A stretch of DNA of 64,000 nucleotides from Erwinia sp. ErVv1. Its GTDB lineage: Bacteria > Pseudomonadota > Gammaproteobacteria > Enterobacterales > Enterobacteriaceae. The position numbers and the translations under genes are program-made. Under the pieces are notes generated by a model, which was not told the DNA's origin, searched no databases, and worked only from the letters and a program-made list of their open reading frames with translations. The stretch spans positions 1 to 64,000 of the forward strand of contig NZ_CDPK01000012.1 of the NCBI RefSeq assembly GCF_900068895.1, written 5' to 3'. Of the stretch, positions 40,270-64,000 are shown one piece after another; the stretch's first letter is position 1; every line of letters begins with the position of its first letter.

Positions 40270-43200
40270 TTAACTCACCAGGCCCCGACCGCAATAATCA
40301 TCATCTAATACCAGGTTTTGCAGCACGGTATTTTGTTTATCTTTGCCCGAGTCAACAAAACCGCTGTACAATTTATCAGCAACATACAATGAAGGTTTGA
40401 ACATCGGGTAAAATTCTTTCTTAATCTTACATGCATCTTTTACATAATCTCTGACACCTTCCTGCAAACTATCGCGGATACAACGCGTAGATTTCTCCTC
40501 ATCTCGCAGTGGCTTGAATACCTTTGATATTGTCCCATCTTTTTCGATTACGAACTTAGCGATCTGCGCATCATTGGCGCTCAATAACTGTTCAAGCGCG
40601 AAACTTTTATTGAAGATCCTTGAGCCCATAAAGTTAGGTACAGAATCAGAAACGAAGCATCCTTTAGCAGAAGCTAATGGATGTAATCCCTTCTGTATCA
40701 GGTCTGAGGTAGCCATATAGAGACCGTGAACAGGCCTATTCATTAGGGATATTAATGCTTTTTGAATAGTGCCAGAATAGCCTACATCTACTATGGCTGA
40801 GGCAGGGTTGTCTAAAATCCCGACTTCGCTCAGATATTGCTGCACTCCAACAAGCTCTACTTTAGAACTGGCCAATATCACAGGCATAAGAAATTCCAGG
40901 AGCGGTTCGATTTTGCTCAGATCATGGTTCTGAATATGAATTTTCTGATCCGAAGTCCAAAGACCCTTCTGATATATTTCCTGCCACAAATCATCGTCTA
41001 ACGTTAAACCAAACCGCTCGAATAAAAAGCTTTCAAGTTCGTTTGGGAAAAAATCAATTTTAGCAATTTCTCTAATGTCAGCCATACTCCTGATTTTAGG
41101 CACATTTACTGCCCTACGGGATAGCTGAAGATAATGGCTTTCGGGTTTTTCATTAAAGGTATCAGACCAAAGATCAAAAACTTCCTTGATGATTTTCCCT
41201 TCACGTGCCAAAAAGTAGAGTTGCTCGATAGAAGAGGATTTAGCTGTCTTCATCAACCAATCACTGAATGAAACTAATAATGGACCTACTAAATTATATC
41301 CAAGTTGATAGGGCCTCTCGCTGTAAATACGAAGATCATCAGGATCAACGTTAGCGACTTTGTTTAAGTTTTTTTGAACAATTAGGCTGAGTGTGAGCTC
41401 ATCATTAATACTTTTAGTAATTTTAGAGTCGGCTACAAGTTTTTGATAGTAAGGTAATGACTTAGCAACGTCATTTGCCCGTAAGAGATGAAGACAGCGT
41501 ACACCAAAACTATCTGCAGGCAATTGCAAGTCAGACCGCTCGTTGTCGCCAATCATCAAAACGTTTTTTCCGGGGATATCTTCTTTTTCAAATGCATGTC
41601 GATAAAGATCCCCTGTATCCTTACGCATCCCAATTGAAGATGAGAGATAAAAATTATCCCAGCCGGAAATACCATTTTTATGCAACATTTCACCGATTAG
41701 CGATTCAGGTAAAAACATATCGCTAATTAGTATCACTCTCTTACCAGACTCTTTAACCATGCCCCATAAATTCAGCGCGTCAGGTCGTAATGAAACTGAA
41801 GCAAGTTCTACATCCGCTTCTATACCAGCTATTTCTTTACATCTGCTTAATGACAAACCGCTCAGTGAAGAAAACTTCTCATAAATAACATGCAGATCGA
41901 TGTCTCTCCCCGCCTCAGCTCTCGCTTCGGCTTCGGCTATAGACCTGAATTGCGAAAATAATTTAGCTTCATGCGTGGTGAGTAACTCAGTAATAACTTT
42001 CTTCGTATGATCCGGATTAAGTAAAGGCCGAATGAGTAAGGTATCAAATATATCAAAGGCAACTAAATGTGTTTCTGAGTCGTTAATAAGATAGCGATAA
42101 CTATCGAAAGAACGGCCAAAATATTGTTGGTCAAAGCGGAACGTTGACCATGATGGCGATCCATGATCTTTTATTATTAATGAGTCATAGCTCAAAGCAG
42201 TTGGAACTGCTCCTAATAACCTTTCGATAGCATGAGCCAAAGTACCGTCATTTTGTGCTAATTCTTCAGGAAAATCATTCCAGCCAAGATTCAAATCAAG
42301 CAGGGGACGGAGAGCATCAGTACGAGCCCAAAACATTGAACCAGCGGGAAAATTGAAATAGGCATCTGGCATGGCTATTTTCATTTTGTTACATAGCATT
42401 TGTCCATCAGCACGATTGGCTAACCATGAAAATGCTGCATAAGGAACCTGTACATAAGCTTGCGGATAGATAATTCCTAGCTTAGGGTTAGAGATAAACT
42501 GAGAGAATATTTTCTCGACGTTTTGAGTGCTACCTAACAGGGCGTTGAAAAGATATTCGCGCCATCCTTGTGTAGCTCCTGCATTATAAAGTGATTTTTT
42601 ACTCTGAATATGACCTATGAAATCATAAGCTTTCAGTTGATTACCAAAGTGAGCGAACATAGGACCAATGTCTCTGCCCCTATTCGGTACTATGTCAACA
42701 ACCAATTTACCAATATTTTTTAGCTCCGAAAGTGCAGTCTTACATACATCCCGCCCTTCTTTAGAAGTCACGGAAACAAACACATCAAGGCTATAAGGCA
42801 CCTGAGAAATATGATGAACAAATTCCTCAATTAGATCGAAGTAATAAATATGACAATGTAGGGCTATGCGCCCCGGTGCTTCTGTATAAAGGGTTGGTAG
42901 CAGGGTAAGATCAACCAGATCCTGTGCAATGTCAGAGTCTACAATACTCATCCCGTGGCGTCGCTGATACTCAGGATGGTGTAAAAACCAAGAGGGCCTA
43001 AATTTAAAAGCGGTATCAAGTAGCTTGGAACGAATATTTGGTGGTGATTTATAATAAGCTGTTTTGAGAAATGCTCTTGTCTTAATTTTAAAAGGTGCTA
43101 GTGCAACAGAATGCTGACCGCGAATTAATCGCATTGCAAACCGTAGGGGTTTAGTTAACTTCCACGAATTGGTATTAACTAAGTTTGATATTTGATCATT

Positions 43201-45258
43201 AAGTAATTTTACCTGCTCAGAAGTGCCATTTAGTGAATTCTCTAAAGACTCGACTCGAGCTAGTGCAGCTGCCGCATACTCTTGACTTAAAACCTTTTCA
43301 TGTTCGTATGTTTTAATCACTTCGCTAATTTCAGCGATTTGTTTTTGTTTAACTTTCAACTCGTTCTTATATGCTGCAATTTGCTCAGCTAAAGTGCTGT
43401 TAGAATCGTTCAACTCATTTATTTTACTATCATACTGGTCAAATTTAGTATTCACTGCAAACTCTTTCTCAGCCTCTTTAGCAGACATAACATGATTTAA
43501 AAGATCAATTTTATCTTTTAGAATCAAAACTTCTTTACCCAATTCAGTTGCTTGTTGTGCATACTCAACAATAGGCAGACGCGTCTTAATAATAGCATTA
43601 TCGAAACCAGATCGCATGTTAGGGGGACTCCCCAGCTGGGTTTGTTCCATGAAAATAAACTCACGTTCCCAGTATTCAACGATATCACTATCCGTTATCT
43701 TAAGCTCTGATTCTAACAAAATCTCCCTAACTACCTGCGTGAGATTAAGGTTATTTCCACTTTGCGAAGGTGAAACAGATGTAACACGCAATAGTGAGTG
43801 CATTACCCCCCTAAATACTACATAACCTAAATTAATATTATCATTTGCGACCCATTCGAGATCAATGATCTTAATTGAACCTTCATCACCGACAAGTATA
43901 TTAAATGGCATTGCATCATTATATTTACCTGGCAGGATAGTATCCTTATCAATGTCGCGGTTCAGTCCAGCATCATCAATAATATATTTCACCCAGCGTG
44001 AGACCCATTGTACAATTGAGTTAATACTCCAGCCTGGGGCGTTTAAAAGAGTATTCAACTCACACCACAGGCTTTGACCACCATAAAAGGCAACTTTATT
44101 ATCTAGCTCATGATGAAAAGTGTGATTATATTCATCACGAGAAAAATCTTCATTTCGATCCATAGGCTTAGTTGTTACTACTAATTCTCCCTGTTCCTCA
44201 CTTATTTCAATAGTTTTGTTGAACTGAGGTAATCGACCATCAGAATAATGAAATAAAGCAGTATTACCGGTAAAGTCTTTTTTTACTAAGGTTGATGAAG
44301 CAATGAACAGAAAAGAATTGCTTAAATCTGGTGCGAGATTGTTCAGCCAGACGGACTTTATTGCCTGATCTAGTGAAAAAACTGGTTCCGAAATGCCTTG
44401 AGGATCTTTATGAGCACTTTCAACTGCTATTTGAGTGAGTTGTTTTGAGTACTTTTCCCAGCCCAAAGGGGTAACAATATCTGTTGGCAACTTATAGTCT
44501 GGAAGGGGTAAGTATTCCGATATATTTGATAAGCCGGCTCTCTCGAGGATCTCTTTAAGCTCATTCCTTCCAAACGTCATCACTCCTTGTTTGTCATATG
44601 AATTATTTATTCCAAACATAGGTTGACCAACGTGGTCTTCAGCAGCGCCAGCGAAATATTTAATACCTAATTTATTTTCAATAGCGATAAAAAGGCTACC
44701 ATCTGTTTTGAGATTACCTTTACAGAAATGTATTAGATTATCTTGACCCGACTCACCAAGAAACATCCTTGCATATTCGAGGACGCCAATGAGTAATACA
44801 TAATCAAATTTTTCAAGGTTAGGCAATTTATCACTGGGTGAGCAAATAATCTCAACATTGGGGAGATCACTACAACGCTCGCGAGCAATTGTCGCGCGTC
44901 TTAGGCTTCCTTCAACAGAAACGACTTCTGCGCCAGTTTCGCCCAGGAAACGTGTTATAGCTCCACATCCACAACCGATTTCAAGAACCCTTTTCCCCGA
45001 GAAATGTTGAGTAAAAGGGCGTAGTAAATTTGCACGTCTGGATGTCAAATGATAAGTTGAAGGCCAATCAATCATTTTAGTGGCTAATTCAGCCGAATTG
45101 CATCTCTTATCTGTAACAGTTTTCATAATGTTTAACAGATAAAGCTCTGCTTCATCGCCATCGTTATATGCAAAGTCAATCGCGTTTTCAGGAATCCATA
45201 CCCTCTCCTCGCCTAGACGGAAGTTCCCAGCATGCATAAGTTCTTGAAATTTAGTCAT
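40270..45258 (-). CDS. Giant O-antigen protein: WbdD-like methyltransferase/kinase-like/coiled-coil fused to RgpF-like GT and HAD module
   Basis: 1662 residues, one uninterrupted frame overlapping the wzt stop by eight bases. Residues 88-210 are a SAM methyltransferase (VLEIGCGCGAITRFLG, 91-106). About 330-480 looks kinase-like: D448-A-M-P-F-N453 and I-I-D466-L-E resemble the catalytic loop and metal-binding Asp, though no clear glycine loop or catalytic HxD is seen. 570-695 is a heptad-rich coiled coil ending NSWKLTKPLRF. About 795-1055 is an RgpF/rhamnan-synthesis glycosyltransferase domain (ALHCHIYYFDL, VPNRGRDIGPM, IGHIQSKKS). About 1066-1240 is a HAD hydrolase (FDIFDTLL, LISDMFLP, MIGDNERSD), followed by a COG5610-type tail with SRRAVNVPK. 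The first three parts have the order of the WbdD chain terminator and ruler. I infer synthesis plus capping of the O-chain exported by Wzm/Wzt. The functions are unproven. Confidence 0.8.
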   Translation of the reverse strand: MTKFQELMHAGNFRLGEERVWIPENAIDFAYNDGDEAELYLLNIMKTVTDKRCNSAELATKMIDWPSTYHLTSRRANLLRPFTQHFSGKRVLEIGCGCGAITRFLGETGAEVVSVEGSLRRATIARERCSDLPNVEIICSPSDKLPNLEKFDYVLLIGVLEYARMFLGESGQDNLIHFCKGNLKTDGSLFIAIENKLGIKYFAGAAEDHVGQPMFGINNSYDKQGVMTFGRNELKEILERAGLSNISEYLPLPDYKLPTDIVTPLGWEKYSKQLTQIAVESAHKDPQGISEPVFSLDQAIKSVWLNNLAPDLSNSFLFIASSTLVKKDFTGNTALFHYSDGRLPQFNKTIEISEEQGELVVTTKPMDRNEDFSRDEYNHTFHHELDNKVAFYGGQSLWCELNTLLNAPGWSINSIVQWVSRWVKYIIDDAGLNRDIDKDTILPGKYNDAMPFNILVGDEGSIKIIDLEWVANDNINLGYVVFRGVMHSLLRVTSVSPSQSGNNLNLTQVVREILLESELKITDSDIVEYWEREFIFMEQTQLGSPPNMRSGFDNAIIKTRLPIVEYAQQATELGKEVLILKDKIDLLNHVMSAKEAEKEFAVNTKFDQYDSKINELNDSNSTLAEQIAAYKNELKVKQKQIAEISEVIKTYEHEKVLSQEYAAAALARVESLENSLNGTSEQVKLLNDQISNLVNTNSWKLTKPLRFAMRLIRGQHSVALAPFKIKTRAFLKTAYYKSPPNIRSKLLDTAFKFRPSWFLHHPEYQRRHGMSIVDSDIAQDLVDLTLLPTLYTEAPGRIALHCHIYYFDLIEEFVHHISQVPYSLDVFVSVTSKEGRDVCKTALSELKNIGKLVVDIVPNRGRDIGPMFAHFGNQLKAYDFIGHIQSKKSLYNAGATQGWREYLFNALLGSTQNVEKIFSQFISNPKLGIIYPQAYVQVPYAAFSWLANRADGQMLCNKMKIAMPDAYFNFPAGSMFWARTDALRPLLDLNLGWNDFPEELAQNDGTLAHAIERLLGAVPTALSYDSLIIKDHGSPSWSTFRFDQQYFGRSFDSYRYLINDSETHLVAFDIFDTLLIRPLLNPDHTKKVITELLTTHEAKLFSQFRSIAEAEARAEAGRDIDLHVIYEKFSSLSGLSLSRCKEIAGIEADVELASVSLRPDALNLWGMVKESGKRVILISDMFLPESLIGEMLHKNGISGWDNFYLSSSIGMRKDTGDLYRHAFEKEDIPGKNVLMIGDNERSDLQLPADSFGVRCLHLLRANDVAKSLPYYQKLVADSKITKSINDELTLSLIVQKNLNKVANVDPDDLRIYSERPYQLGYNLVGPLLVSFSDWLMKTAKSSSIEQLYFLAREGKIIKEVFDLWSDTFNEKPESHYLQLSRRAVNVPKIRSMADIREIAKIDFFPNELESFLFERFGLTLDDDLWQEIYQKGLWTSDQKIHIQNHDLSKIEPLLEFLMPVILASSKVELVGVQQYLSEVGILDNPASAIVDVGYSGTIQKALISLMNRPVHGLYMATSDLIQKGLHPLASAKGCFVSDSVPNFMGSRIFNKSFALEQLLSANDAQIAKFVIEKDGTISKVFKPLRDEEKSTRCIRDSLQEGVRDYVKDACKIKKEFYPMFKPSLYVADKLYSGFVDSGKDKQNTVLQNLVLDDDYCGRGLVS

Positions 45259-53707: not shown

Positions 53708-55048
53708 TTAAAACCAGCCGCTAAACCACTCCGGCATAATAAACAAATTGTAGTAGCTGACCAGCGCCATTATGCCGACAAACACCACTGAAACCGAGAC
53801 CCACTGTCGGGCATACGGGATAAAGCGGATGCCAATCACCGGCTTAATAAAGAATGGATGGGCAAAGGCCGAAATGAGCACCTGAGAAATTGACAGCGTC
53901 AGCGCCACATACCAGACGTTGGGGTAGATCCAGGTGGTGGCCAGCACCAGCACCACAATGATGCTTGCCACAATATTCCAGTAAAACTCGACGTTAGTCC
54001 GTCCGTTTGCCTGCGAAATTGCGCCCGTCAGGCCGCCCATTGGACGCAGCATGCCGAAGAGAAGCATCAGCGGTATCAGGTGGCCGACGGCTTCATGTGC
54101 GCTGCCATAAAGCACCCGCACGATCACCGGTGAAAGGATGCCGATCGCCAGATACATCAGGCTGCTAAACAGCATGATGGCCAGCGTGCCTTTCAGGAAC
54201 AGTTTCTGAAGCTGCGCCGGTTCATGCTGCTTTTCAGCAAAGCGCGGCAGCGCCAGGCGGTTTATCACTGGCGTAACCAGCTTAAGTGGCTGAAGCACCA
54301 GCTCTTTTGCCAGAGAATAGACCCCCAGCATATCGGCTCCCATTACCTTACCCACAATCAGGGAGTCGGCCTGAGTACGCAGCTGATTTATCGTCTGGGA
54401 ACCGAGCTGATAGACACCATATTTAATCGAACTAAAAAAAGTGGCTTTATCAAATTCAAAGGTGGGTCGCCAGGCTTTATCGCCAAACCAAATCATGCAC
54501 AGAATACGCATGGCGGCATTTGAAAACAGCCCCAAAATAACGGCGGCAACGTTGAGGGAGGTAAACCAGAGCATGGCAACGGTAAATATAAATGCCAGGA
54601 ATTTGGTGACCATCTCTATTTTCGCCAGCAGCACCATCTTTTTGGCTTTAATAAAATGAGCCTGATATTGCGACAGCGAACCCAGCACCAGAAAGTTCAG
54701 ACTGGTTAGCATAATCAGTCCGGTCAGCTGAGGAATATGATAGAAATGCGCGATAGGCCAGGCGATGGCGATCAGCAGCAGCCCGGTTATCAGGCTCAGC
54801 AGGACGTTGACCCAGTAGATGGTGCTCTGCTCTTTCCGGGTGATGTTCTGGCGATGCACGATATAGCTGCTCATCCCCATATCCTGCAACACCATCGCTA
54901 CCGCCAGAATGGCGTTGATAATAGCCAGAACGCCCAGTTCGTGGGCCTCCAGCCTGCGGGCCAGCACGCCCAGCTGCACGACCTGTAATACGGCGGCGAA
55001 ACAGGTACCGCCAAACAGCCAGGCGGCCTGATGTTTTAAACTACTCAC
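53708..55048 (-). CDS. wzx: Exopolysaccharide repeat-unit flippase (AmsL/Wzx)
   Basis: 446 residues with about 12-14 hydrophobic segments, polysaccharide-transporter (PST/MOP) family. N-terminal SLKHQAAWLFGGTCFAAVLQVVQLGVLARRL and QLRTQADSLIVGKVMGADMLGVYSLAKEL are typical of Wzx proteins of amylovoran/stewartan clusters. It flips lipid-linked repeat units across the inner membrane. The GTG start overlaps the amsK stop (GTGA). It is last gene of the operon. Confidence 0.9.
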   Translation of the reverse strand: MSSLKHQAAWLFGGTCFAAVLQVVQLGVLARRLEAHELGVLAIINAILAVAMVLQDMGMSSYIVHRQNITRKEQSTIYWVNVLLSLITGLLLIAIAWPIAHFYHIPQLTGLIMLTSLNFLVLGSLSQYQAHFIKAKKMVLLAKIEMVTKFLAFIFTVAMLWFTSLNVAAVILGLFSNAAMRILCMIWFGDKAWRPTFEFDKATFFSSIKYGVYQLGSQTINQLRTQADSLIVGKVMGADMLGVYSLAKELVLQPLKLVTPVINRLALPRFAEKQHEPAQLQKLFLKGTLAIMLFSSLMYLAIGILSPVIVRVLYGSAHEAVGHLIPLMLLFGMLRPMGGLTGAISQANGRTNVEFYWNIVASIIVVLVLATTWIYPNVWYVALTLSISQVLISAFAHPFFIKPVIGIRFIPYARQWVSVSVVFVGIMALVSYYNLFIMPEWFSGWF

Positions 55049-56268
55049 GCAAGTTGCTCCAAAAGCTGTGCCAGCTGGCGATAAGCAATATGCTGATTGA
55101 ACTCGGTTTCTACCCTGGCGCGTGCGGCCGCAACGACCGGTGCCACGTCAATATCGCTTTTCGCCAGTTTGAACAGGATATCACTTAATGCTTTCGCATC
55201 GCCTTCCGGCGCCAGCCAGCCTGAGACGTTATTTTCAATGAGCTCAGGAATGCCGCTATGATCGGTTGAGACCACGGGTAAGCCTACGGCCATGGCTTCC
55301 ATCAGGGCAACCGGAATACCCTCCATATCGCCGTCAGCAGCGGTCAGGGAAGGCAGCAGGAAGATGTCGGCTTCATCCAGGTAGCGCTTGATCTCTTCCT
55401 GGGGTTTAAATCCGACCATTTTCACGCAGTCTTCCAGCTGTGCCGTACGAATGGTGTCACGCAGTGTCTCTTCCAGGTCACCGTTACCGATGATGGTATA
55501 TTCAAAATTCGCGCCCTGTGCCTTAAGGTATTTGCAGGCCTCAACGGCGACCCCCAGACCTTTTTTCTCGGTCAGACGTGCGACAGAGACGATACGCAGC
55601 GGCGAGTGCAGCGACTCACGCTCTTTCAGATTGAATTTCTCTGGCTCAATGCCCATGCGCGTCACGTGAATTTTTTCAGGCGGACAGCCCATGGCAATCA
55701 GTTTGTTTTCCCACAGATGGCTGATAGGCAGCATCAGTTCGGACTGACGGAACAGGTTGGCATAGTCCTGCTTATGCTCCTCAAGAATATGCCGGCGGGA
55801 AATATCCGCACCGTGGAATACGGTCGCCTGTTTGCCCCGTAGCACATTTAGTTCCCGCAGCTTATTCGCCAGCGCACCGGCGTAGCCGAAGTGCACCAGG
55901 AAAATATCGGCGGTAAAGGTCTTCTTCGCATGGGCAACGATGGCAGGCAGCAGAAGCTTGCTGGACTGCGCGCCATAGCGCCCGATATTGAAGGATTTCA
56001 ATGTGGTCAGGCTGAGGATTTTCGGCAGCACAATCTGCAGGCGCTGCTTCAGCTTGTCCGCGTTGCTCACCTTCTCTTCCGGCAGCAGATAGTGCGTTTT
56101 TTCTGCCAGATTGTAGCGATCGAATGCGCCATGGCGGTTCACCAGATCGCCAGGGAAGACGGAGATGATCTCCACGTCATAGCCGCTGTCGATAAAATGG
56201 ATGACCTGATTGAGCACGAAGGTCTCTGACGAGACCGGAAATCGCATTGTGAAGAATGTAAGTTTCAT
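55045..56268 (-). CDS. amsK: GT4 glycosyltransferase AmsK
   Basis: A 407-residue GT-B enzyme. N-terminal acceptor half begins FFTMRFPVSSETFVLNQV, with HGADISRR near residue 155. Donor half: VSVARLTEKKGLGVAVEACKYLK, the EX7E motif in DMEGIPVALMEAMAVGLPVVSTDHSGIPELI, and SGWLAPEGD. It is the AmsK/WceK-like galactosyltransferase of the EPS repeat unit, by position between amsJ and wzx. It starts four bases after the amsJ stop. Confidence 0.87.
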   Translation of the reverse strand: MKLTFFTMRFPVSSETFVLNQVIHFIDSGYDVEIISVFPGDLVNRHGAFDRYNLAEKTHYLLPEEKVSNADKLKQRLQIVLPKILSLTTLKSFNIGRYGAQSSKLLLPAIVAHAKKTFTADIFLVHFGYAGALANKLRELNVLRGKQATVFHGADISRRHILEEHKQDYANLFRQSELMLPISHLWENKLIAMGCPPEKIHVTRMGIEPEKFNLKERESLHSPLRIVSVARLTEKKGLGVAVEACKYLKAQGANFEYTIIGNGDLEETLRDTIRTAQLEDCVKMVGFKPQEEIKRYLDEADIFLLPSLTAADGDMEGIPVALMEAMAVGLPVVSTDHSGIPELIENNVSGWLAPEGDAKALSDILFKLAKSDIDVAPVVAAARARVETEFNQHIAYRQLAQLLEQLA

Positions 56269-56272
56269 CGGT

Positions 56273-57523
56273 TCACCCTAAATGTCTGACGACGTCTGCG
56301 GTAATGTTGTTACCCAGAACTCTCTCCTGCTCAACCGCGAGATCAACCTGCTGTTTTACGGCGTCGTAATTGTCCAGAATGCTGTTAACCCGGGTGATGA
56401 TGCTGCCATCCATCAGGCTTTTCACATCCGTTGCCATCTCTGGCAGGCCCAGCTGGTTCATCACACCCAGAGATTTGTGCTCATAGTTGATCGCCACGGC
56501 GGGGGTGCCAAAGTTCATGGAGATAATGGCCGAGTGCAGTCGGGTGCCGATGGTCAGATGGGATTCGCCAAGCAGTATCCCCAGCTCCAGGTCGTTAAAC
56601 TCATCCATGATCACGTGATACTGATCTTTCTGCACAATGCGGTCGCGCAGCGTCATCGCCACCATACGGTCATCTTTGTTGTAGCTGTCAATGCCGGTGC
56701 AGGTGGAGAGGGCAACGACCTGATAGCCCCGGTCGATCACCGCATTAATCACCTTAGCAAACGCCTCTTCGTACTCCTGTTGCGTGACGCCCAGACGCTT
56801 ATCAAAGGGAGCCAGTTCGCGCACGGTTATGGCGACGGTTTTTTTCGCGGCAATCAGGTTCTGCCAGTGCTGCAGGTTATGGCTGGGATTTTCAACGCTG
56901 CGGGCGCGAACCAGGAAGGCGGTATCCGCACCGGAGACCACCTTTTCCGTGGTGATGCTGCCCTTTTTCATCATTTCAAGACTGACGCTTTCACGCAGAA
57001 CCAGGCTGTTAACGCGCGAGAAAACGAAGTTGGCAATCTCGTTAAATCTCTCTTTCTGGAATGGCCCGACGCTGTGCCCGATCATATAAATCGGCTTCTT
57101 TGCCAGCAGCGCGCAGAGCGAATGTTCAAACTGGAGCGGCCCATACAGGTCAACGAAAAACGAGCCGCCGACCTGAATAATCGCATCGTATTGCTTAAGA
57201 CGGTTGGTAAATTCCTGGAGATATTTTGGCACGGGAAAAGATTTAAACAGCCCGCTGCCGCTGATGTGCGCCATCATAATTTTTGGCATCAGGCGGCGTT
57301 TGATTTTATCGGTCAGGCTATTTTTGCCCTTCTTTGTTTCAAGAAAGAGCTCATCCGGCATGACCGTCTGCTGTAGCAGATAGCCAGAGCTGGTTGGATA
57401 GCGACTGATGATATCAATGTCCAGATCGTTCCTTGCGAGGTTAAGCGAGTCGATAAGACCGCGTAAAATAGCGCCATCACCACGATTTCCACATGTATGA
57501 TTGCCAACTAATAAAATCTTCAT
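56273..57523 (-). CDS. amsJ: Polysaccharide pyruvyl transferase AmsJ
   Basis: 416 residues of the PssK/CsaB-type pyruvyl transferase family: LLVGNHTCGNRGDGAILRGLID (about 3-24), IQVGGSFFVDLYGPLQFEHSLCA, VGPFQKERF, and the C-terminal LTIGTRLHSAIISMNFGTPAVAINYEHKS. It adds pyruvate ketals to the repeat unit, as in amylovoran and stewartan. GGAG precedes the ATG. A 191-base gap separates it from amsF, the only sizeable gap in this stretch. Confidence 0.93.
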   Translation of the reverse strand: MKILLVGNHTCGNRGDGAILRGLIDSLNLARNDLDIDIISRYPTSSGYLLQQTVMPDELFLETKKGKNSLTDKIKRRLMPKIMMAHISGSGLFKSFPVPKYLQEFTNRLKQYDAIIQVGGSFFVDLYGPLQFEHSLCALLAKKPIYMIGHSVGPFQKERFNEIANFVFSRVNSLVLRESVSLEMMKKGSITTEKVVSGADTAFLVRARSVENPSHNLQHWQNLIAAKKTVAITVRELAPFDKRLGVTQQEYEEAFAKVINAVIDRGYQVVALSTCTGIDSYNKDDRMVAMTLRDRIVQKDQYHVIMDEFNDLELGILLGESHLTIGTRLHSAIISMNFGTPAVAINYEHKSLGVMNQLGLPEMATDVKSLMDGSIITRVNSILDNYDAVKQQVDLAVEQERVLGNNITADVVRHLG

Positions 57524-57714: not shown

Positions 57715-59931
57715 TTACCCTTTCAATGCAAAATAAGGCACGGCAACCTGTTTGCCGTTAATCACCATCGACACATAGCCTTCGGCCTGTGAGGTATTTA
57801 CCTCTTCAGCTTTTAACAGCCGTGATTCCAGCAGCACATCGCCCTGCTCGTTAGCCCCAATCCCGGCTTTGCCGTTGTGCAGGGTGAAGCGCTGTAACGC
57901 CTGATGAGCATTTCCGCCTGAAGGCTTATCTGCAAAGGCCATTTTGCTGTCGAACCGTGCGCATTTGCCGGTCATAAACCGGTCCCGGGCGGTCGACTTC
58001 ATCAGTACGCCAGCGGATGCCAGCCAGCCGGCCAGCTTGACGTAAACGCGGGTATCGGTGTCATAGGGCGTTTCGTACATCACATCGAGGATCGGGCTGG
58101 CCCCTTCTGCATGCCAGCTGGCTTCGAATTTATGTGCTTTACGCTGCAGGCTGATTATGGCCTTGCCGCCGGTGGTTTTGCCGTCCACCACCTGGTTCAG
58201 CAGGCTCTTATCGGTGCCGTTGCTGTACGAGGACTGGCCGAAAATTTCGATTTCCCAGTTGTCGCCGACGTCGGGCGTAAAGATATTGCCCAGCTCATAC
58301 CACTTTTCCTGATTGGTATTGTTGATGATGCGATAGCGCGACGTCAGGTAGTTGTACTTCATGCTGCCGTCAACGGCGATGCCGTAGGACTCCACGCGCG
58401 TTGAGCCTCGCTCATAGGCGCTCAGCCATTCGTGATCGCCCAGCGAGTTGTCGATCCAGCTTCCGGCCTGCAAATTGGTCTGGCGCATATTCAGGCGCGA
58501 ATTGTGGGCTATCAGCGGATTCGGGCAGGTTTCCAGGCTCAGGGCATCAATGATCCACTGGCCGTTGGAAATGTTGCCCGGATGTTCGGAGTGCTCAATC
58601 CAGCCGTTATGGATCAGTGACTGACCGCAGCGCTCAAGGTTAAGCACCATCCCTTTGGTACAGTATTGAGCATTGAAGTTTGAGAGCTCGATCGCCGTGC
58701 TGTGGTCCCACTTGCCTTTCGGCAGGTTTGACCAGACGGACTTGATCACATCGCCGGTACAGCGCAGGGCGTACCACTGGTCGATTTTACAATCGAGCGT
58801 ATCCATCAGACTGAGTGAGGTGCCGCCGACCTGGACAAAACGCAGGCAGGCGCCGCGGAAGAACTGTCCGCCTTTGCAGGTATTGTTAAAGAAGCCCTGC
58901 CCATTGTCCTTTACGTCGGTACGACCGTTAAAGTTCAGGTTGCTGACTTCCACCCAGCGGGCGTTAACCTGGAAAACAAACCCGGGTTTGCCGTCGGAGA
59001 CGATATTGGTGGCCGGGAAGTAGCCGAAGTTGACCATGGCCCCACAGACGCGGAAAAAGCGCGTCTGCTCGCCGGAGAAATCACAGGCGCTGACGAAGAA
59101 GTCACCGGCGGGAAACTGAATGCAGATCTGCTGGTTGGCCTTTTGCGACCAGGCATACATCGCTTTGATGGCCGGTGCCGCGTCGGTTTTACCGTCGTCG
59201 ATGGCACCAAAATCAAACAGCGTCAGGCGGTTGAAGTCGTCAACCACGCGCCGCCAGTGGAAATCGGTCCCGGAGAAAATCACCCCGCCGTCATCCGGCG
59301 CAGCGCTCAGGCTGCCGACGAACTCGCCACCGCCCTGCTCCAGCCCGTTATGCCAGCTGCTGAGCTTAACCTTGGCCCCTTCGAACAGCGGACGCGTTTT
59401 TCGCAGATCGTCAACGGAGGCGATTTCGCCAATCAGCTGATAACCGGCGGGCTGCGACAGGCGCTTACTGAAGGTATTTGCCCCCGGATGGCTGACGTCA
59501 GGAATATTGAACAGAACGTTTCCGCCATCATCCACCACCGCCATGGAGTGCGCGGGCGTGGCAATCAGCGCGCCGTTATCGGCGATAAACTTCTGAAAGG
59601 TCCCCTCGTTGAGCGCAATAGGCTGTTCAATCTTAGAGAGCTTACCGCTGGCGTTACGCAGGAAAACATCCGTCAGGTTAGCTGACTGAGTCGGATCGGT
59701 GCCGACTTTACCAATGTACAGCTTGCCACTGAAGTTTTTCCAAAAGCGGTCAGGCATGGTGTAGATATTTTCAGGCGTCAGGATCGGGACGTCTTCTTTA
59801 GGCAGATCGCTTACCGGTACCTCTTTCAGCGACACGGCGGGCTCTTTTCTGGCAGCCTGACTCGAGAACGAGCTTACCGAAAGGGCGGCGAAAATGGATG
59901 AGAATGCGGTAATTACTTCTCTTCTTTTCAT
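57715..59931 (-). CDS. amsF: AmsF-like exopolysaccharide protein with phage tailspike-like architecture
   Basis: 738 residues. N-terminal export signal (KRREVITAFSSIFAALSVSSFSSQA). Residues about 55-150 (NIYTMPDRFW, GKLYIGKVGTDP, VFLRNASGKL, HSMAVVDDGGNVLF) resemble the head-binding domain of P22-like tailspikes. At 232-252, TLFDFGAIDDGKTDAAPAIK is the pectate-lyase-type beta-helix opening, and the following 300 residues have short strand/turn repeats. The C-terminal domain has AmsF-like ending VAVPYFALKG. In amylovoran and stewartan clusters the homologue (AmsF/WceF) is a periplasmic protein thought to process the polymer. Homology to a phage depolymerase suggests capture of a phage gene. 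Confidence 0.9.
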   Translation of the reverse strand: MKRREVITAFSSIFAALSVSSFSSQAARKEPAVSLKEVPVSDLPKEDVPILTPENIYTMPDRFWKNFSGKLYIGKVGTDPTQSANLTDVFLRNASGKLSKIEQPIALNEGTFQKFIADNGALIATPAHSMAVVDDGGNVLFNIPDVSHPGANTFSKRLSQPAGYQLIGEIASVDDLRKTRPLFEGAKVKLSSWHNGLEQGGGEFVGSLSAAPDDGGVIFSGTDFHWRRVVDDFNRLTLFDFGAIDDGKTDAAPAIKAMYAWSQKANQQICIQFPAGDFFVSACDFSGEQTRFFRVCGAMVNFGYFPATNIVSDGKPGFVFQVNARWVEVSNLNFNGRTDVKDNGQGFFNNTCKGGQFFRGACLRFVQVGGTSLSLMDTLDCKIDQWYALRCTGDVIKSVWSNLPKGKWDHSTAIELSNFNAQYCTKGMVLNLERCGQSLIHNGWIEHSEHPGNISNGQWIIDALSLETCPNPLIAHNSRLNMRQTNLQAGSWIDNSLGDHEWLSAYERGSTRVESYGIAVDGSMKYNYLTSRYRIINNTNQEKWYELGNIFTPDVGDNWEIEIFGQSSYSNGTDKSLLNQVVDGKTTGGKAIISLQRKAHKFEASWHAEGASPILDVMYETPYDTDTRVYVKLAGWLASAGVLMKSTARDRFMTGKCARFDSKMAFADKPSGGNAHQALQRFTLHNGKAGIGANEQGDVLLESRLLKAEEVNTSQAEGYVSMVINGKQVAVPYFALKG

Positions 59932-60016: not shown

Positions 60017-61051
60017 TTACACCAGTGAAAGCCAGCTCTCTTTAATGACCTTGCCGTCGAATTTCAGCGAGGTTTCGACTGTTTTCGCGCTCATGGCAAA
60101 AAACAGCGCATCGTTATGTGCGAGCTGGTTCATTTTTTCAATAAAAGCGGTCCGATCATTCATCGCGACCAGAAATCCGTCCTGACTGTCGTTAATAATT
60201 TCCTGCGGACCCGTCGGGCAGTCATAGGCGACAACCGGCAGCGCCCAGGACTTGGCCTCGAGCAGCACCAGCGGTAGCCCCTCATAGCGCGAGGTCATCA
60301 ATGCCATATCGCTGTCGCGGTAGTAGTCGTTGATGTTGGATACCTTGCCGACGAAGTTAACGCTGTCGGTAATCTTAAGCGTCGCCGCTTTGGCCAACAG
60401 TTCGCTTTTTAACTCACCGTCGCCCGCAATCACCAGCTTCCAGTCAGGGTTGGTGGCGGCAAAGCCCTGCCAGACGTCCAGCAGCAGGTCGAAACCTTTC
60501 TGATGATCGAGACGGCCAACCGCCAGCGCCTGGCGGTGCCGCACGCTGCGCTGATGATTTTTATACACCACGGGGTTGGGGATAGTCTGGCTGGCGATGC
60601 CCCAGCGGGTAAAGACGCTGCGGTCTTTGTCGGTCAGCACGATGACGCGGTCGTAATAGCGTAAAAAGAGGTACTTGAGGAATTTGATCGGCTTGCCGAA
60701 GGAGTTAATTGCAATATGCTCGCAGGCGTAGGCCTTTGACGTTTTCTTTTTGCGCGCCAGCAGGCTGTAGAGAGCAAACATTACGCTCAGGCGCCCCATA
60801 CTGATCAGGAAAACCGCATCAAACCCTTCCTGATTAATGCGCTGCACCGCGCTGCGAATAGGATTCTTCACGCCGGCAAAGCTGACGATCTCTTTCACTT
60901 TTTCAAACGGATAAAAGGGCTGACCGGATCCTTCCAGCGAATAGACGGTCACCTGATGCGCGTCGCCCAGACATTCGGACATAAAGTTGCAAATGTTTTC
61001 CGTTCCGGCATAGGAGTAGGCGTCTTTAATCACCAGCACTATTTTTTTCAT
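60017..61051 (-). CDS. GT4 glycosyltransferase (AmsD-like)
   Basis: A 344-residue GT-B enzyme: VLVIKDAYSYAGTENICNFM at the N-terminus, TIPNPVVYK linker, donor half AVGRLDHQKGFDLLLDVWQGF, EX7E in SRYEGLPLVLLEAKSWALPVVAYDCPTGPQEII. By similarity of layout it matches AmsD in amylovoran clusters, adding a galactose or glucose to the repeat unit. It lies between the GT2 gene and amsF, with gaps of 85 and 110 bases. Confidence 0.87.
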   Translation of the reverse strand: MKKIVLVIKDAYSYAGTENICNFMSECLGDAHQVTVYSLEGSGQPFYPFEKVKEIVSFAGVKNPIRSAVQRINQEGFDAVFLISMGRLSVMFALYSLLARKKKTSKAYACEHIAINSFGKPIKFLKYLFLRYYDRVIVLTDKDRSVFTRWGIASQTIPNPVVYKNHQRSVRHRQALAVGRLDHQKGFDLLLDVWQGFAATNPDWKLVIAGDGELKSELLAKAATLKITDSVNFVGKVSNINDYYRDSDMALMTSRYEGLPLVLLEAKSWALPVVAYDCPTGPQEIINDSQDGFLVAMNDRTAFIEKMNQLAHNDALFFAMSAKTVETSLKFDGKVIKESWLSLV

Positions 61052-61161: not shown

Positions 61162-61914
61162 CTATCTGTGCTTCAGCGCGAACAAAACCCCGTTAACCAT
61201 GTACCAGACGTAATAGTAATACACTTTTAGTGGATTGTTTTTATAGATAAATCTTAATAAGTCGAGGTGCCACTTCGCCGCTTTGTTTTTATTACGCGAA
61301 AGTGAATCACCCAGCTCATAGTAAACAACCAGTTCCTTATTAATTACGCGAGCCTGCCTGTACTGTTCAAAGAGCTCATACAGGAACAAAAAGTCCTCAT
61401 GACCCTTTTTCTGAAAATAGATACTGCGCGCGGGTCGTCGGTAGCAGACGGAGGAAAAACAGATACGAAACTGCTTTTTCACAAAGCTGTCTTTCATCAG
61501 CAAGGGCTTGTTGTAAGTGACGCTGTAGGATTTGGTGCGGGAGTTGTAACCATAATGCGAGATGACCAGATCGTCACCCGCTGCCAGGGCCTGAACCTGT
61601 AGCATCAGTTTATCGCGCTGCCATTCATCGTCGCTGTCAAGAAAAGCGATAAACTCCTCTTTTGCGGCGCGGAGGCCCACGTTACGGGTTTCGGCCGCAC
61701 CGAGATTGACCTCATTATTGAGCAGGGTAATACGCGGATCCCGGCAGTGCTCCTGCACCAGCGCCAGCGAGTCATCGGTCGATTTATCATTAATCAGATA
61801 GATGCGCCAGTCCGTCCAGGTTTGATCAAGTACCGATTGTACCGCCCGCAGGACCGTGCTGTGCGCATTGTACATGGGGATGATGATGCCCACCGTGCCG
61901 ATTTGATTGTTCAT
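61162..61914 (-). CDS. GT2 glycosyltransferase (AmsB/AmsE-like)
   Basis: A 250-residue GT-A enzyme: GIIIPMYNAHSTVLRAVQSVLDQT (about 9-32), LINDKSTDDS, NVGLRAAKEEFIAFLDSDDEWQRDKL (DxD). A C-terminal helical tail with an amphipathic YYYVWYMVNGVLF segment suggests membrane association. AGGA precedes the ATG. AmsB or AmsE equivalence cannot be settled by eye; it follows the polymerase gene, as amsB does after amsC. Confidence 0.85.
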   Translation of the reverse strand: MNNQIGTVGIIIPMYNAHSTVLRAVQSVLDQTWTDWRIYLINDKSTDDSLALVQEHCRDPRITLLNNEVNLGAAETRNVGLRAAKEEFIAFLDSDDEWQRDKLMLQVQALAAGDDLVISHYGYNSRTKSYSVTYNKPLLMKDSFVKKQFRICFSSVCYRRPARSIYFQKKGHEDFLFLYELFEQYRQARVINKELVVYYELGDSLSRNKNKAAKWHLDLLRFIYKNNPLKVYYYYVWYMVNGVLFALKHR

Positions 61915-62042: not shown

Positions 62043-63167
62043 TCAGAAAAGCCTGAAGAGTGGTGCAACGCTGTAGCCGTCGATCGACTGTACGGACAGG
62101 ATGGTGTTATAAGCCAGATAGTAGGACGTCATGGCAAACAGCAGCGCGAAGTTGAGGATCACGTTCCTGATACGCAGCATCAGGAAGGCCAGCAGCAGTG
62201 GCTCACAGTGCAGGAACAGGTTCCCCACCCTGCCTCCCAGAATCGAGAAGTCTGAGAAGACGATACGGACGGCCGCACCAGCGGAGTAAGCGATAAACAG
62301 CAGGTAGGCCAGGCGATCTTTTTCCGTAATAGCTTTGCGGAAGTAGACCATCGTAAAGAAGGCAATAAAAGCGATGTTCTTTAAGTTCGCCAGACCGAAA
62401 ACCGGCGAGGCGACGTCAAAGTTGGTCCCGCTGTAGCCCATGGCCCTGTCACCGATCACCGGTACGATCCCCAGCGAGTCAAGAAACAGCCTTTTACCGC
62501 CGACTATCCCCAGTGGAATAGCAGCAATCACCATCGCCAGGCCAAAATATTTACGCTCTTTCAGGAACAGGAACGGCGTCACCATTAGCACGGCATAGCC
62601 GGTTGAGTGCGACTGCGAACTGAGTACCAGAAAAATAATCGCCAGCAGGTATTTCCGTCCCGCGGCGGAGCAGATGCAGGCCACCGCGAAAGCGCTGGAA
62701 AGACCGAAGCGGATCTGGTTCATATCCTTGTTGATAAACAGGTGCGCCGAATAGAGACAAAGCGAACAGAGGATCAGCGGCGAATATTTTTTATAGATCC
62801 AGGCGTTGGTCGATACCGCGATAAATGCGATGAACAACAGGAAGTAGTAGCTCTGCTGGGTAAACCATGACAGCACCCACGCCAGCAGCATAAACAGATT
62901 TTCGTACCGATAAACGTTGGCAACGGTCTGATAACCACTCATTTCCGTCTGACGGGAAAAGTCGTGGAAAAAGCCCAGATACTGCCAGTCATCAATCCCG
63001 GAACCCGGCCCCCTCATCCCGGCGAAAAGGATCAGGCCAACCGCACCGATAAAGAAGAAATAGGTCACTACCCTTTGCATTTTAGGCTGCGTCAGCTGGC
63101 CAATGGTTGCCAGCTCAAAAAGACAAAAAATGAGCAGTGTGTAGCTAATTATCCAGTATATCGCCAT
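62043..63167 (-). CDS. Exopolysaccharide polymerase (AmsC-like, Wzy/EpsG type)
   Basis: About 374 residues from the ATG at 63167 (GGGGA upstream); an in-frame GTG four codons earlier overlaps that site. Around ten transmembrane segments with a long periplasmic loop after the second; the conserved segment MRGPGSGIDDWQYLGFF (about 56-72) fits EpsG-type polymerases. It is expected to polymerise repeat units flipped by Wzx, in the periplasmic face of the inner membrane. Confidence 0.85.
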   Translation of the reverse strand: MAIYWIISYTLLIFCLFELATIGQLTQPKMQRVVTYFFFIGAVGLILFAGMRGPGSGIDDWQYLGFFHDFSRQTEMSGYQTVANVYRYENLFMLLAWVLSWFTQQSYYFLLFIAFIAVSTNAWIYKKYSPLILCSLCLYSAHLFINKDMNQIRFGLSSAFAVACICSAAGRKYLLAIIFLVLSSQSHSTGYAVLMVTPFLFLKERKYFGLAMVIAAIPLGIVGGKRLFLDSLGIVPVIGDRAMGYSGTNFDVASPVFGLANLKNIAFIAFFTMVYFRKAITEKDRLAYLLFIAYSAGAAVRIVFSDFSILGGRVGNLFLHCEPLLLAFLMLRIRNVILNFALLFAMTSYYLAYNTILSVQSIDGYSVAPLFRLF

Positions 63168-63208
63168 TCTTTTCCCCACCGCGCTATCTTTCCTGGCGGA
63201 AGATAACG

Positions 63209-64000
63209 CTATTTTCTACCGAACCGCTGGCTGACTTTATCCTTCAAACGATTGATAAAGTAGGTACGGTTGTCTTTATTTGTTAAGAAAAAGTAGCGAA
63301 TAAAACTCACGCTGGCCTGGAGAGACTTGCCATCCATTTTGTATCTCAGCGGCAGCTTATACGCTTTATAAGTATTGATATCGCGCTGGGTGAGATAAGG
63401 CTTCATGGTATCCAGCCAGAAAAGTGAGTAGTTAACCGACTCGCCCTTATGTTTAGACCCAAATTTAGTGATCAGATGATAGTTAGCCAGAGGCTGCTCA
63501 ATCATCACGAACTCATAGCCCTTTTTGTCTGCACGGATGCAGAAATCATAATCCTGATGGCGAATGTAGCGGGTGTCGAAGCGAATATCTTCGGCATATT
63601 CGCGCTTCATCACCAGAGTACTGGTCTGAATAAAGCCGTAACAGCCAAACAGATATTCAGCCACCGTCTCGTTGCGGCCTGGTCGCTGCATCGGCATCAC
63701 CTTCAGGAAATGACCATCCTGAATGATATTGACCTGGCTGAAAATGATGCTTTTCTGGCGACCCTCGGCTTCCAGTCGCTGAATGGTTTTCACCGACTCC
63801 AGCAGCTTGTCGTGGTGCCACTCATCATCCGCATCCAGGAAGCTGATGTAATCCCCGGTCGCCAGCTCAATGCCTTTATTACGGGCACCCGAGCCATTCA
63901 GTTTTTCCTGCGACAGCACGAGGTTGATTTTGAGCTTACTGTATTTTTCTGACTGCACTACCGCGGCTAACTTATCCGCGTCGCTGGATTTGTCATCAAC
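63209..64000 (-). CDS. GT2 glycosyltransferase, 5' end outside the window
   Basis: Partial gene of 264 codons; the frame is open to the window edge and begins inside VDDKSSDADK, the typical second motif of GT-A enzymes. NGSGARNKGIELATGDYISFLDADDEWHHDKL (DxD region) and YIRHQDYDFCIRADKKGYEF (acceptor/catalytic ED-like) follow. The GTG at 63958 is internal. It lies upstream of the polymerase gene in the EPS operon. Only about 20-30 N-terminal residues should be missing. Confidence 0.88.
   Translation of the reverse strand, partial: VDDKSSDADKLAAVVQSEKYSKLKINLVLSQEKLNGSGARNKGIELATGDYISFLDADDEWHHDKLLESVKTIQRLEAEGRQKSIIFSQVNIIQDGHFLKVMPMQRPGRNETVAEYLFGCYGFIQTSTLVMKREYAEDIRFDTRYIRHQDYDFCIRADKKGYEFVMIEQPLANYHLITKFGSKHKGESVNYSLFWLDTMKPYLTQRDINTYKAYKLPLRYKMDGKSLQASVSFIRYFFLTNKDNRTYFINRLKDKVSQRFGRK

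Follow-up and report, generated by a model that had tools for sequence, protein, structure and literature searches.

Does the exopolysaccharide (EPS) operon of an Erwinia strain contain a protein built like a phage tailspike, and, if so, what would such a protein do in the cell and from where were its parts obtained? The question is raised by amsF/wceF, a gene occupying positions 57715-59931 of a 64,000-nucleotide stretch of Erwinia sp. ErVv1 (contig NZ_CDPK01000012.1, positions 1 to 64,000; hereafter the window), in whose product an earlier note, made from the sequence alone, had seen an export signal, a P22-like head-binding segment and the opening of a beta-helix. The tailspike-built EPS trimmer is real but largely known: Irmscher et al. 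described it in 2021 in a close relative, solving the structure of WceF from Pantoea stewartii (PMC7949094), and the main observation is therefore already in print for the ortholog. The favored explanation, to which we assign a probability of roughly 0.87, is that an exported tailspike-like trimer trims the cell's own EPS and that its gene was assembled from phage modules. The analysis confirms a published enzyme that edits the cell's own slime in another Erwinia-type genome, and adds a natural head-less ortholog, a fusion of head and body unseen in the sampled viruses, and four acidic residues invariant from phages to bacteria. The part that a specialist might not expect is a wider lead concerning lysis cassettes, which, if true, matters more than the main finding.

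An exported protein with tailspike architecture

A single minus-strand open reading frame (ORF) of 738 codons plus stop fills 57715-59931 exactly, and on the plus strand stops interrupt the reading frame. In a phmmer search of solved structures, the product matched residues 1-735 of P. stewartii WceF (formerly CpsH; PDB 6TGF) with 1167.8 bits; the two proteins are homologous over their full length and 68% identical. By this homology, the gene is amsF/wceF of an Erwinia-type EPS operon and the ortholog of WceF, with which the product shares the Tat-type signal, P22-type head, neck, beta-helix, sandwich and stem as well as the place in the EPS operon. A scan against NCBIfam assigned the protein to 0 families.

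The N-terminus (MKRREV...) reads MKRREVITAFSSIFAALSVSSFSSQAA, with a KRR twin-arginine motif at its start and AxA at its end (by eye), and MKRR opens all 65 distinct orthologs compared. The export signal proposed earlier is thereby supported and appears to be of the twin-arginine translocation (Tat) type; WceF itself carries a Tat signal, from which its export by Tat was read (PMC7949094).

The segment that follows was recognized as PF09008 (Head_binding; residues 48-146) with an E value of 2e-16 and 60.7 bits, above the curated cut-off of 24, and its sequence also hit PDB entries for the tailspike heads of P22 and Sf6 (phmmer, E 4e-11 to 5e-8). An AlphaFold2 model of the head (112 residues; predicted local distance difference test [pLDDT] 85, predicted template modeling score [pTM] 0.78), single-chain like all models made here, superimposed on 6TGF with Z 18.5 and on the crystal structure of the P22 head, 1LKT, with Z 10.4 (root-mean-square deviation [rmsd] 2.8, 87 aligned residues). 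Most P22 and Sf6 rows scored Z 9-10. Next came two entries for cyanophage tails, at Z 6.4 and 5.6, and no remaining row exceeded 3.1. As modeled, the N-terminus of the protein thus shares the fold of the P22-type head-binding domain; the earlier note would have counted another fold of the first 150 residues as a refutation. The profile match, the sequence matches and the Z scores together rule out a chance resemblance. For WceF, the published head resembles the P22 tailspike N-terminus with a C-alpha rmsd of 2.6 Å (PMC7949094).

Behind the head, residues 154-243 match the phage depolymerases 7vyv, 7vz3 and 7lzj (phmmer, E 5e-12 to 6e-12), in the region described for WceF as a neck, which precedes a beta-helix of eight rungs (PMC7949094). 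For the proposed beta-helix opening, the PF12708 beta-helix entry reached only E 0.0069 and 16.6 bits, under its cut-off of 27, but homology settles the fold, since 6TGF, itself a beta-helix protein, is matched over its full length. A search of the helix for acidic residues, as the earlier note had suggested, yielded D250, D377, D380 and E467, all identical in the 55/55 bacterial and phage rows compared after Hena1, with its long branch (2.51 in the body tree), had been left out. These are the best candidates for catalytic acids, by conservation only, since the terms "active site" and "catalytic" are absent from the main text of PMC7949094.

A kept head fold with an altered stretch

The bacterial and phage heads have in common the core residues P53, F63, G69, G74, D79, G96, Q103, P104, M130 and F141. 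They differ at the stretch corresponding to HK620 positions 72-85, which is near-invariant in the sampled phage heads; at 13 of its 14 positions, the phage letter occurs in 0/62 distinct bacterial heads. The phage sample comprised 84 heads (50 distinct) and leans to HK620-like sequences because the best 80 of 547 matches were kept; three more distant phage heads (L128, L130 and L131) retain the stretch, with one letter changed in L130. Relative to the tailspike heads of P22, HK620 and Sf6, the likeness thus lies in fold and core residues and the difference in the replaced stretch, attachment to a virion being inapplicable here. The proposal that a particle-attachment domain was kept therefore stands for the fold and core and fails for the phage-specific stretch and for one Pantoea that has lost the head.

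Among 65 distinct orthologs (the head-less L083 and the broken frames L090 and L093 left out), the mean majority fraction was highest in the helix (0.843), and the head, at 0.776, is conserved to about the same degree as the sandwich (0.747) and the C-terminus (0.773). The ratio of nonsynonymous to synonymous substitution rates (dN/dS) in the head was 0.016-0.146 in the nine of ten hand-chosen pairs for which it was computable, a rough estimate because dS was saturated (>1) in several pairs, and indicates purifying selection as in the rest of the protein. Conservation and low dN/dS therefore argue that the head is under selection in bacteria. In WceF-type proteins, the head is a kept fold with an altered stretch, probably serving a structural role in place of phage docking.

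Distribution of the gene

We searched 60 genomes, comprising the window's own, 35 others of its genus and 24 from other families of the order. A full-length ortholog was present in 24/35 genomes of the genus, and any match in 0/24 of the other families. In the genus around genome G205, 58/61 genomes matched at E 1e-150, two of them without the head, namely G376 (query residues 147-737, open frame of 635 amino acids) and G359 (query residues 273-737, broken gene); in G371, G382 and G394, the gene is split or cut toward its C-terminal side. Orthologs in EPS operons were collected from 55 loci (L040-L094), in three of which (L078, L079 and L089) the best match to the window's upstream glycosyltransferase reaches 33-38% identity. 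The genome and contig sets overlap (G376 and L083 have the same coordinates), and their counts are not to be summed. As a side observation, wceF is broken in Pantoea brenneri and Candidatus Pantoea haifensis (L090 and L093), and the Plautia stali symbiont (L105) holds only a partial match.

Phage relatives and the origin of the modules

Some part of the window protein is matched by 282 phage records. The head region alone matches 153, mostly of Salmonella (93) and Escherichia (21) phages; three of the four head-matching phages fetched belong to Lederbergvirus, the genus of P22. The 40 best whole-protein matches come from Erwinia, Pantoea and Xanthomonas phages, and none starts before residue 102; phrog_4250 matches residues 134-734 (E 3e-193). 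A viral scan with the single protein as query found no relative, whereas an alignment query did. The EPS depolymerases of Erwinia and Pantoea phages (phrog_4250; PhiEaH1, AH06, L1, Era103 and others) are thus homologous in neck and body and differ in lacking the P22-type head (0/19 named phages) and any Tat-like start visible by eye. Xanthomonas phage XaC1 (L110:1-4195) carries two such depolymerase genes in tandem.

Using profile models, we found head and body in one frame at 80 loci, all of them EPS-operon genes, a count in which the window gene appears twice (L001 and L010) next to two broken genes and overlapping copies. Head and body occurred together in 0/79 viral body loci, that is, 19 named phages and 60 IMG/VR contigs; the latter had been found by body patterns alone, and some of them duplicate named phages or are fragments of bacterial chromosomes. 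In one of the 79, L182, a head could not have shown because the locus begins only 83 bases before the match. Descent from a single captured prophage depolymerase, as the earlier note had suggested, is on this evidence not supported, with the reservation that unsampled phages exist. The sequence relationships suggest a gene assembled from phage-derived modules, with a body akin to Erwinia and Pantoea phage depolymerases and a head akin to those of P22-type phages; acquisition during coevolution with phages has been suggested for WceF (PMC7949094).

In a quick maximum-likelihood tree of 56 body sequences, the 18 wceF rows form one clade (Shimodaira–Hasegawa-like approximate likelihood ratio test [SH-aLRT] 100), phages phiEaP8 and SNUABM5 are joined by two further copies of the window's genome, L003 and L005 (100), and a separate clade (100) unites twelve copies from chromosomes with two from plasmids. 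The phage bodies fall on several deep branches, and the starred branches force at least five changes of label. The approximately unbiased (AU) test rejected a single clade of the 37 bacterial and plasmid rows against 18 phage rows (p-AU 2e-59), and did so again with 34 rows once the prophage-like L004, L038 and L127 had been removed (p-AU 4e-65; labels need 3 changes); Hena1 was left out of both tests. Bacterial and phage bodies interleave, and the body would seem to have been exchanged between phages and Erwiniaceae more than once. In the megaplasmids of two Pantoea strains (L117:5932-7788 and L118:5926-7779), a head-less copy adjoins an autotransporter gene and falls in the clade of chromosomal copies.

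The alternative that the operon gene came first and that Erwinia phages took their depolymerase from bacteria draws on the unrooted body tree, on one phage record that calls its copy amsF, and on the prominence of Erwinia phages among the matches (102 of the 282 records). We regard it as unlikely, because the phage bodies occupy several deep branches with wceF as one clade among them, and because relatives in phages were found for the head and neck as well. Exchange may have recurred in both directions.

Function of the protein

For WceF, the purified trimer is reported to hydrolyze stewartan slowly to single repeat units and to cluster or autoagglutinate with it, being far slower than the tailspike enzyme of phage phiEa1h, and wceF mutants are reported to make longer stewartan (PMC7949094, citing Schollmeyer 2012 for the mutants). 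We propose that the product folds in the cytoplasm and is then exported, probably by Tat; that it assembles into trimers built of a P22-type head, a neck and a beta-helix body; and that, either during export or within the matrix, it slowly cleaves the cell's own EPS as an endo-glycosidase, which would leave shorter chains. Hydrolysis of the window strain's EPS, the trimeric state and the role in chain length are carried over from the ortholog and would apply here by analogy; the polymer-editing role that the earlier note had ascribed to the protein agrees with what is published for WceF.

The same clustering lends itself to a second explanation, namely a lectin-like cross-linker of the matrix whose trimer binds and clusters EPS, with slow hydrolysis, so much below that of the phiEa1h enzyme, as a secondary property. 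This is improbable, given that the four acids common to phage depolymerases are invariant in every row compared, as expected under selected catalysis, and that mutants are reported with longer chains. Much less credit still is due to the older model, in which AmsF processes new repeat units or aids polymerization and does not hydrolyze finished chains. A carbohydrate site on a beta-helix could act on short units, but WceF cuts polymer to single repeat units, its mutants are reported to have longer EPS, and the nearest relatives outside WceF are phage depolymerases and tailspikes. A statement on the role of AmsF is found in PMC4490474, and no AmsF biochemistry surfaced in the literature searched for AmsF. 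Finally, despite the tailspike architecture, a virion protein of a degraded prophage lying by chance in the EPS region can be dismissed, since EPS genes flank the gene on both sides here and in relatives in place of a virion-gene neighborhood, all 65 distinct orthologs have the Tat-type start, and selection is purifying.

Several points weigh against the trimming of the cell's own EPS by an enzyme assembled from phage modules. The exact substrate may differ from the stewartan of WceF. Modeled at full length, the structure is of poor quality (pLDDT 69.6; rmsd 17.7 to 6TGF despite Z 42.3), and the fold claims rest on the head-only model for this reason. Orthologs are patchy: 11/35 other genomes of the genus are without a full-length one, and among 295 genomes drawn evenly over the GTDB family only nine match at E 1e-100, all of them full-length; two of the nine are the window's own genome and another of its species. 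Nor is the head strictly required everywhere, because Pantoea sp. A4 (L083:5869-7764) has a natural head-less wceF ortholog in which a short linker connects the Tat signal to the residues preceding the neck, with the rest of the protein intact and the same EPS gene neighbors; unlike it, head-less constructs of WceF aggregated (PMC7949094). The saturation of dS and the absence of a joined head and body from the viral loci belong here as well, and the direction from phage to bacterium is inferred, because the trees are unrooted and of a quick kind.

Head-less copies in lysis cassettes

Outside the window, the genome holds four more depolymerase copies, all head-less by profile search and with no Tat-like start by eye. 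Copy L004, which groups with the tail genes of two Dibbivirus phages, has a carotenoid cluster and Rhs-type genes beside it (by eye), and copy L002 lies near secretion-type genes (by eye). Two of the four stand in small cassettes with lysis genes, termed sites A and B (Table 1). At site B, a phrog_1356 holin (E 2.9e-15) and a phrog_7 endolysin (E 9e-10; PF00959 just under its cut-off) accompany the depolymerase, and an Rz-like frame with an overlapping lipoprotein frame lies between holin and depolymerase in all eight site-B regions read (by eye). No virion genes were recognized in the ORF lists of the cassette regions, the PHROGs scan having covered the cassette genes only.

Among 20 hand-picked cassette regions of relatives, 12 carry repressor, endolysin, holin and depolymerase, and eight do not: the depolymerase alone was matched in L275, L276, L277, L278 and L282; L273 has repressor and depolymerase together with a degenerate endolysin piece with stops; and L284 and L286 have Q and depolymerase only. 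By their flanks, eight regions are of the site A type, nine of the site B type and three (L276, L277 and L285) of neither, so that in L273, L275, L278, L282, L284 and L286 the depolymerase stands at one of the two shared sites, but no lysis gene was matched beside it. In six hand-chosen pairs, dN/dS at site B was 0.05-0.11 for the repressor, 0.09-0.24 for Q and 0.04-0.15 for the depolymerase, and, in 5/6 pairs each, 0.09-0.21 for the endolysin and 0.11-0.20 for the holin; judged by these ratios, the site B genes are under purifying selection. The endolysin was matched in 21/37 genomes of the genus, a count that takes in the window's own genome, those of its species and a weak match in G005, and the cassette gene set also occurs on seven IMG/VR contigs (L137, L138, L139, L147, L148, L150 and L156), with one gene in two pieces in L138 and L156.

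Two TGCGTATNACGCA palindromes lie between the site-A repressor and the endolysin and are the sole matches to TGCGTNNNACGCA in the 19.9 kb locus. The site-A repressor (L007:7252-8146) has SEG where seven other site-A repressors read, two of them IMG/VR copies, have the Ala-Gly pair (SAG), and the site-B repressor of the window genome matches the S24 profile weakly (E 0.006). SOS control of the cassettes is uncertain for these two reasons.

Type 10 secretion is secretion by holin, endolysin and spanin. The gene content of site B, with a holin, an endolysin, an Rz/Rz1-like pair and an adjoining cargo enzyme, resembles it; it differs in that the cargo is an EPS depolymerase and that the CI-like repressor and Q suggest prophage-type control. 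Erwinia might deliver the same phage-type EPS depolymerase in two ways or more, as Tat-exported WceF and from repressed lysis cassettes acting as an enzyme-release system, a tentative idea against which we would place the odds. In this scheme, head-less siblings would be held behind CI-like repressors in a set of repressor, Q, endolysin, holin, Rz/Rz1 and depolymerase, without virion genes and at chromosomal sites that relatives share, as a prophage remnant retained for enzyme release. Induction would make a small number of cells lyse, and the enzyme set free would loosen or cut their own or a rival's EPS matrix; the WceF head, its phage-specific stretch gone, would be kept only as a trimer-stabilizing cap. 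If true, conserved lysis cassettes with EPS depolymerase cargo would be a bacterial matrix-control system built from prophage parts. No paper on such a cassette in Erwinia chromosomes stood out in a literature search that covered subscription journals thinly.

Operon context and neighboring genes

Pfam matches of ten neighboring proteins, together with neighbors conserved in relatives, place amsF/wceF in a Wzy-type EPS operon, and the locus is of the amylovoran/stewartan type. The genes, each on the minus strand, run in window order from a flippase through a glycosyltransferase, a pyruvyl transferase, amsF/wceF, two glycosyltransferases and an EpsG-type gene to a further glycosyltransferase (Table 1), and Wzc-, Wza- and sugar-transferase-type genes continue the operon past the window edge. 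The counterpart in Erwinia amylovora is AmsF, the equivalent gene of an ams-type operon.

Table 1. Coordinates of amsF/wceF, its domains, its operon neighbors and the two lysis cassettes (window positions unless a contig handle is given).
Feature	Position	Strand	Basis or remark
Polysaccharide flippase (Wzx-type)	53708..55048	-	PF13440/PF01943
Glycosyltransferase family 1	55045..56268	-	PF00534
Polysaccharide pyruvyl transferase	56273..57523	-	PF04230
amsF/wceF, putative exported tailspike-like EPS hydrolase, 738 aa	57715..59931	-	ORF; full-length match to PDB 6TGF; 68% identity to P. stewartii protein L061
C-terminal triple helix, beta-sandwich and stem, residues 517-738	57718..58383	-	6TGF alignment; domain description in PMC7949094
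Right-handed parallel beta-helix, about residues 236-516	58384..59226	-	Homology to 6TGF; candidate catalytic acids D250, D377, D380, E467
Neck domain, about residues 166-230	59242..59436	-	phmmer match of residues 154-243 to 7vyv/7vz3/7lzj; boundaries from WceF description in PMC7949094
P22-tailspike-type head domain, residues 48-146	59494..59790	-	PF09008 (E 2e-16); head model Z 10.4 to 1LKT, 18.5 to 6TGF
Twin-arginine (Tat-type) signal region, residues 1-28	59848..59931	-	MKRRE...AA by eye; MKRR in 65/65 distinct orthologs; Tat signal of WceF in PMC7949094
Adjacent glycosyltransferase (family 1)	60017..61051	-	PF00534; at least 65% identity match in 52/55 wceF loci
Glycosyltransferase family 2	61162..61914	-	PF00535
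EpsG-family membrane protein, probable Wzy-type polymerase	62043..63179	-	PF14897; polymerase role inferred
Glycosyltransferase family 2, cut by window	63209..63958	-	PF00535; whole gene L010:8210-9160
Site A cassette	L007:7252-10796 (own genome C3)		S24-type repressor (PF00717, E 3.5e-20) opposite endolysin, holin, head-less depolymerase
Site B cassette	L009:5894-10644 (own genome C2)		CI-like repressor opposite Q (PF06530, E 1.8e-41), endolysin, holin, Rz/Rz1-like pair, head-less depolymerase

Elsewhere in the window, at 40270-45258, a 1662-aa protein is encoded next to Wzm/Wzt-type ABC transporter genes. One chain here unites a methyltransferase with an RgpF domain (E 8.7e-51) and a weak HAD-like match that narrowly misses its cut-off; a kinase-like stretch and a coiled coil were seen by eye, as in O-antigen chain-end enzymes.

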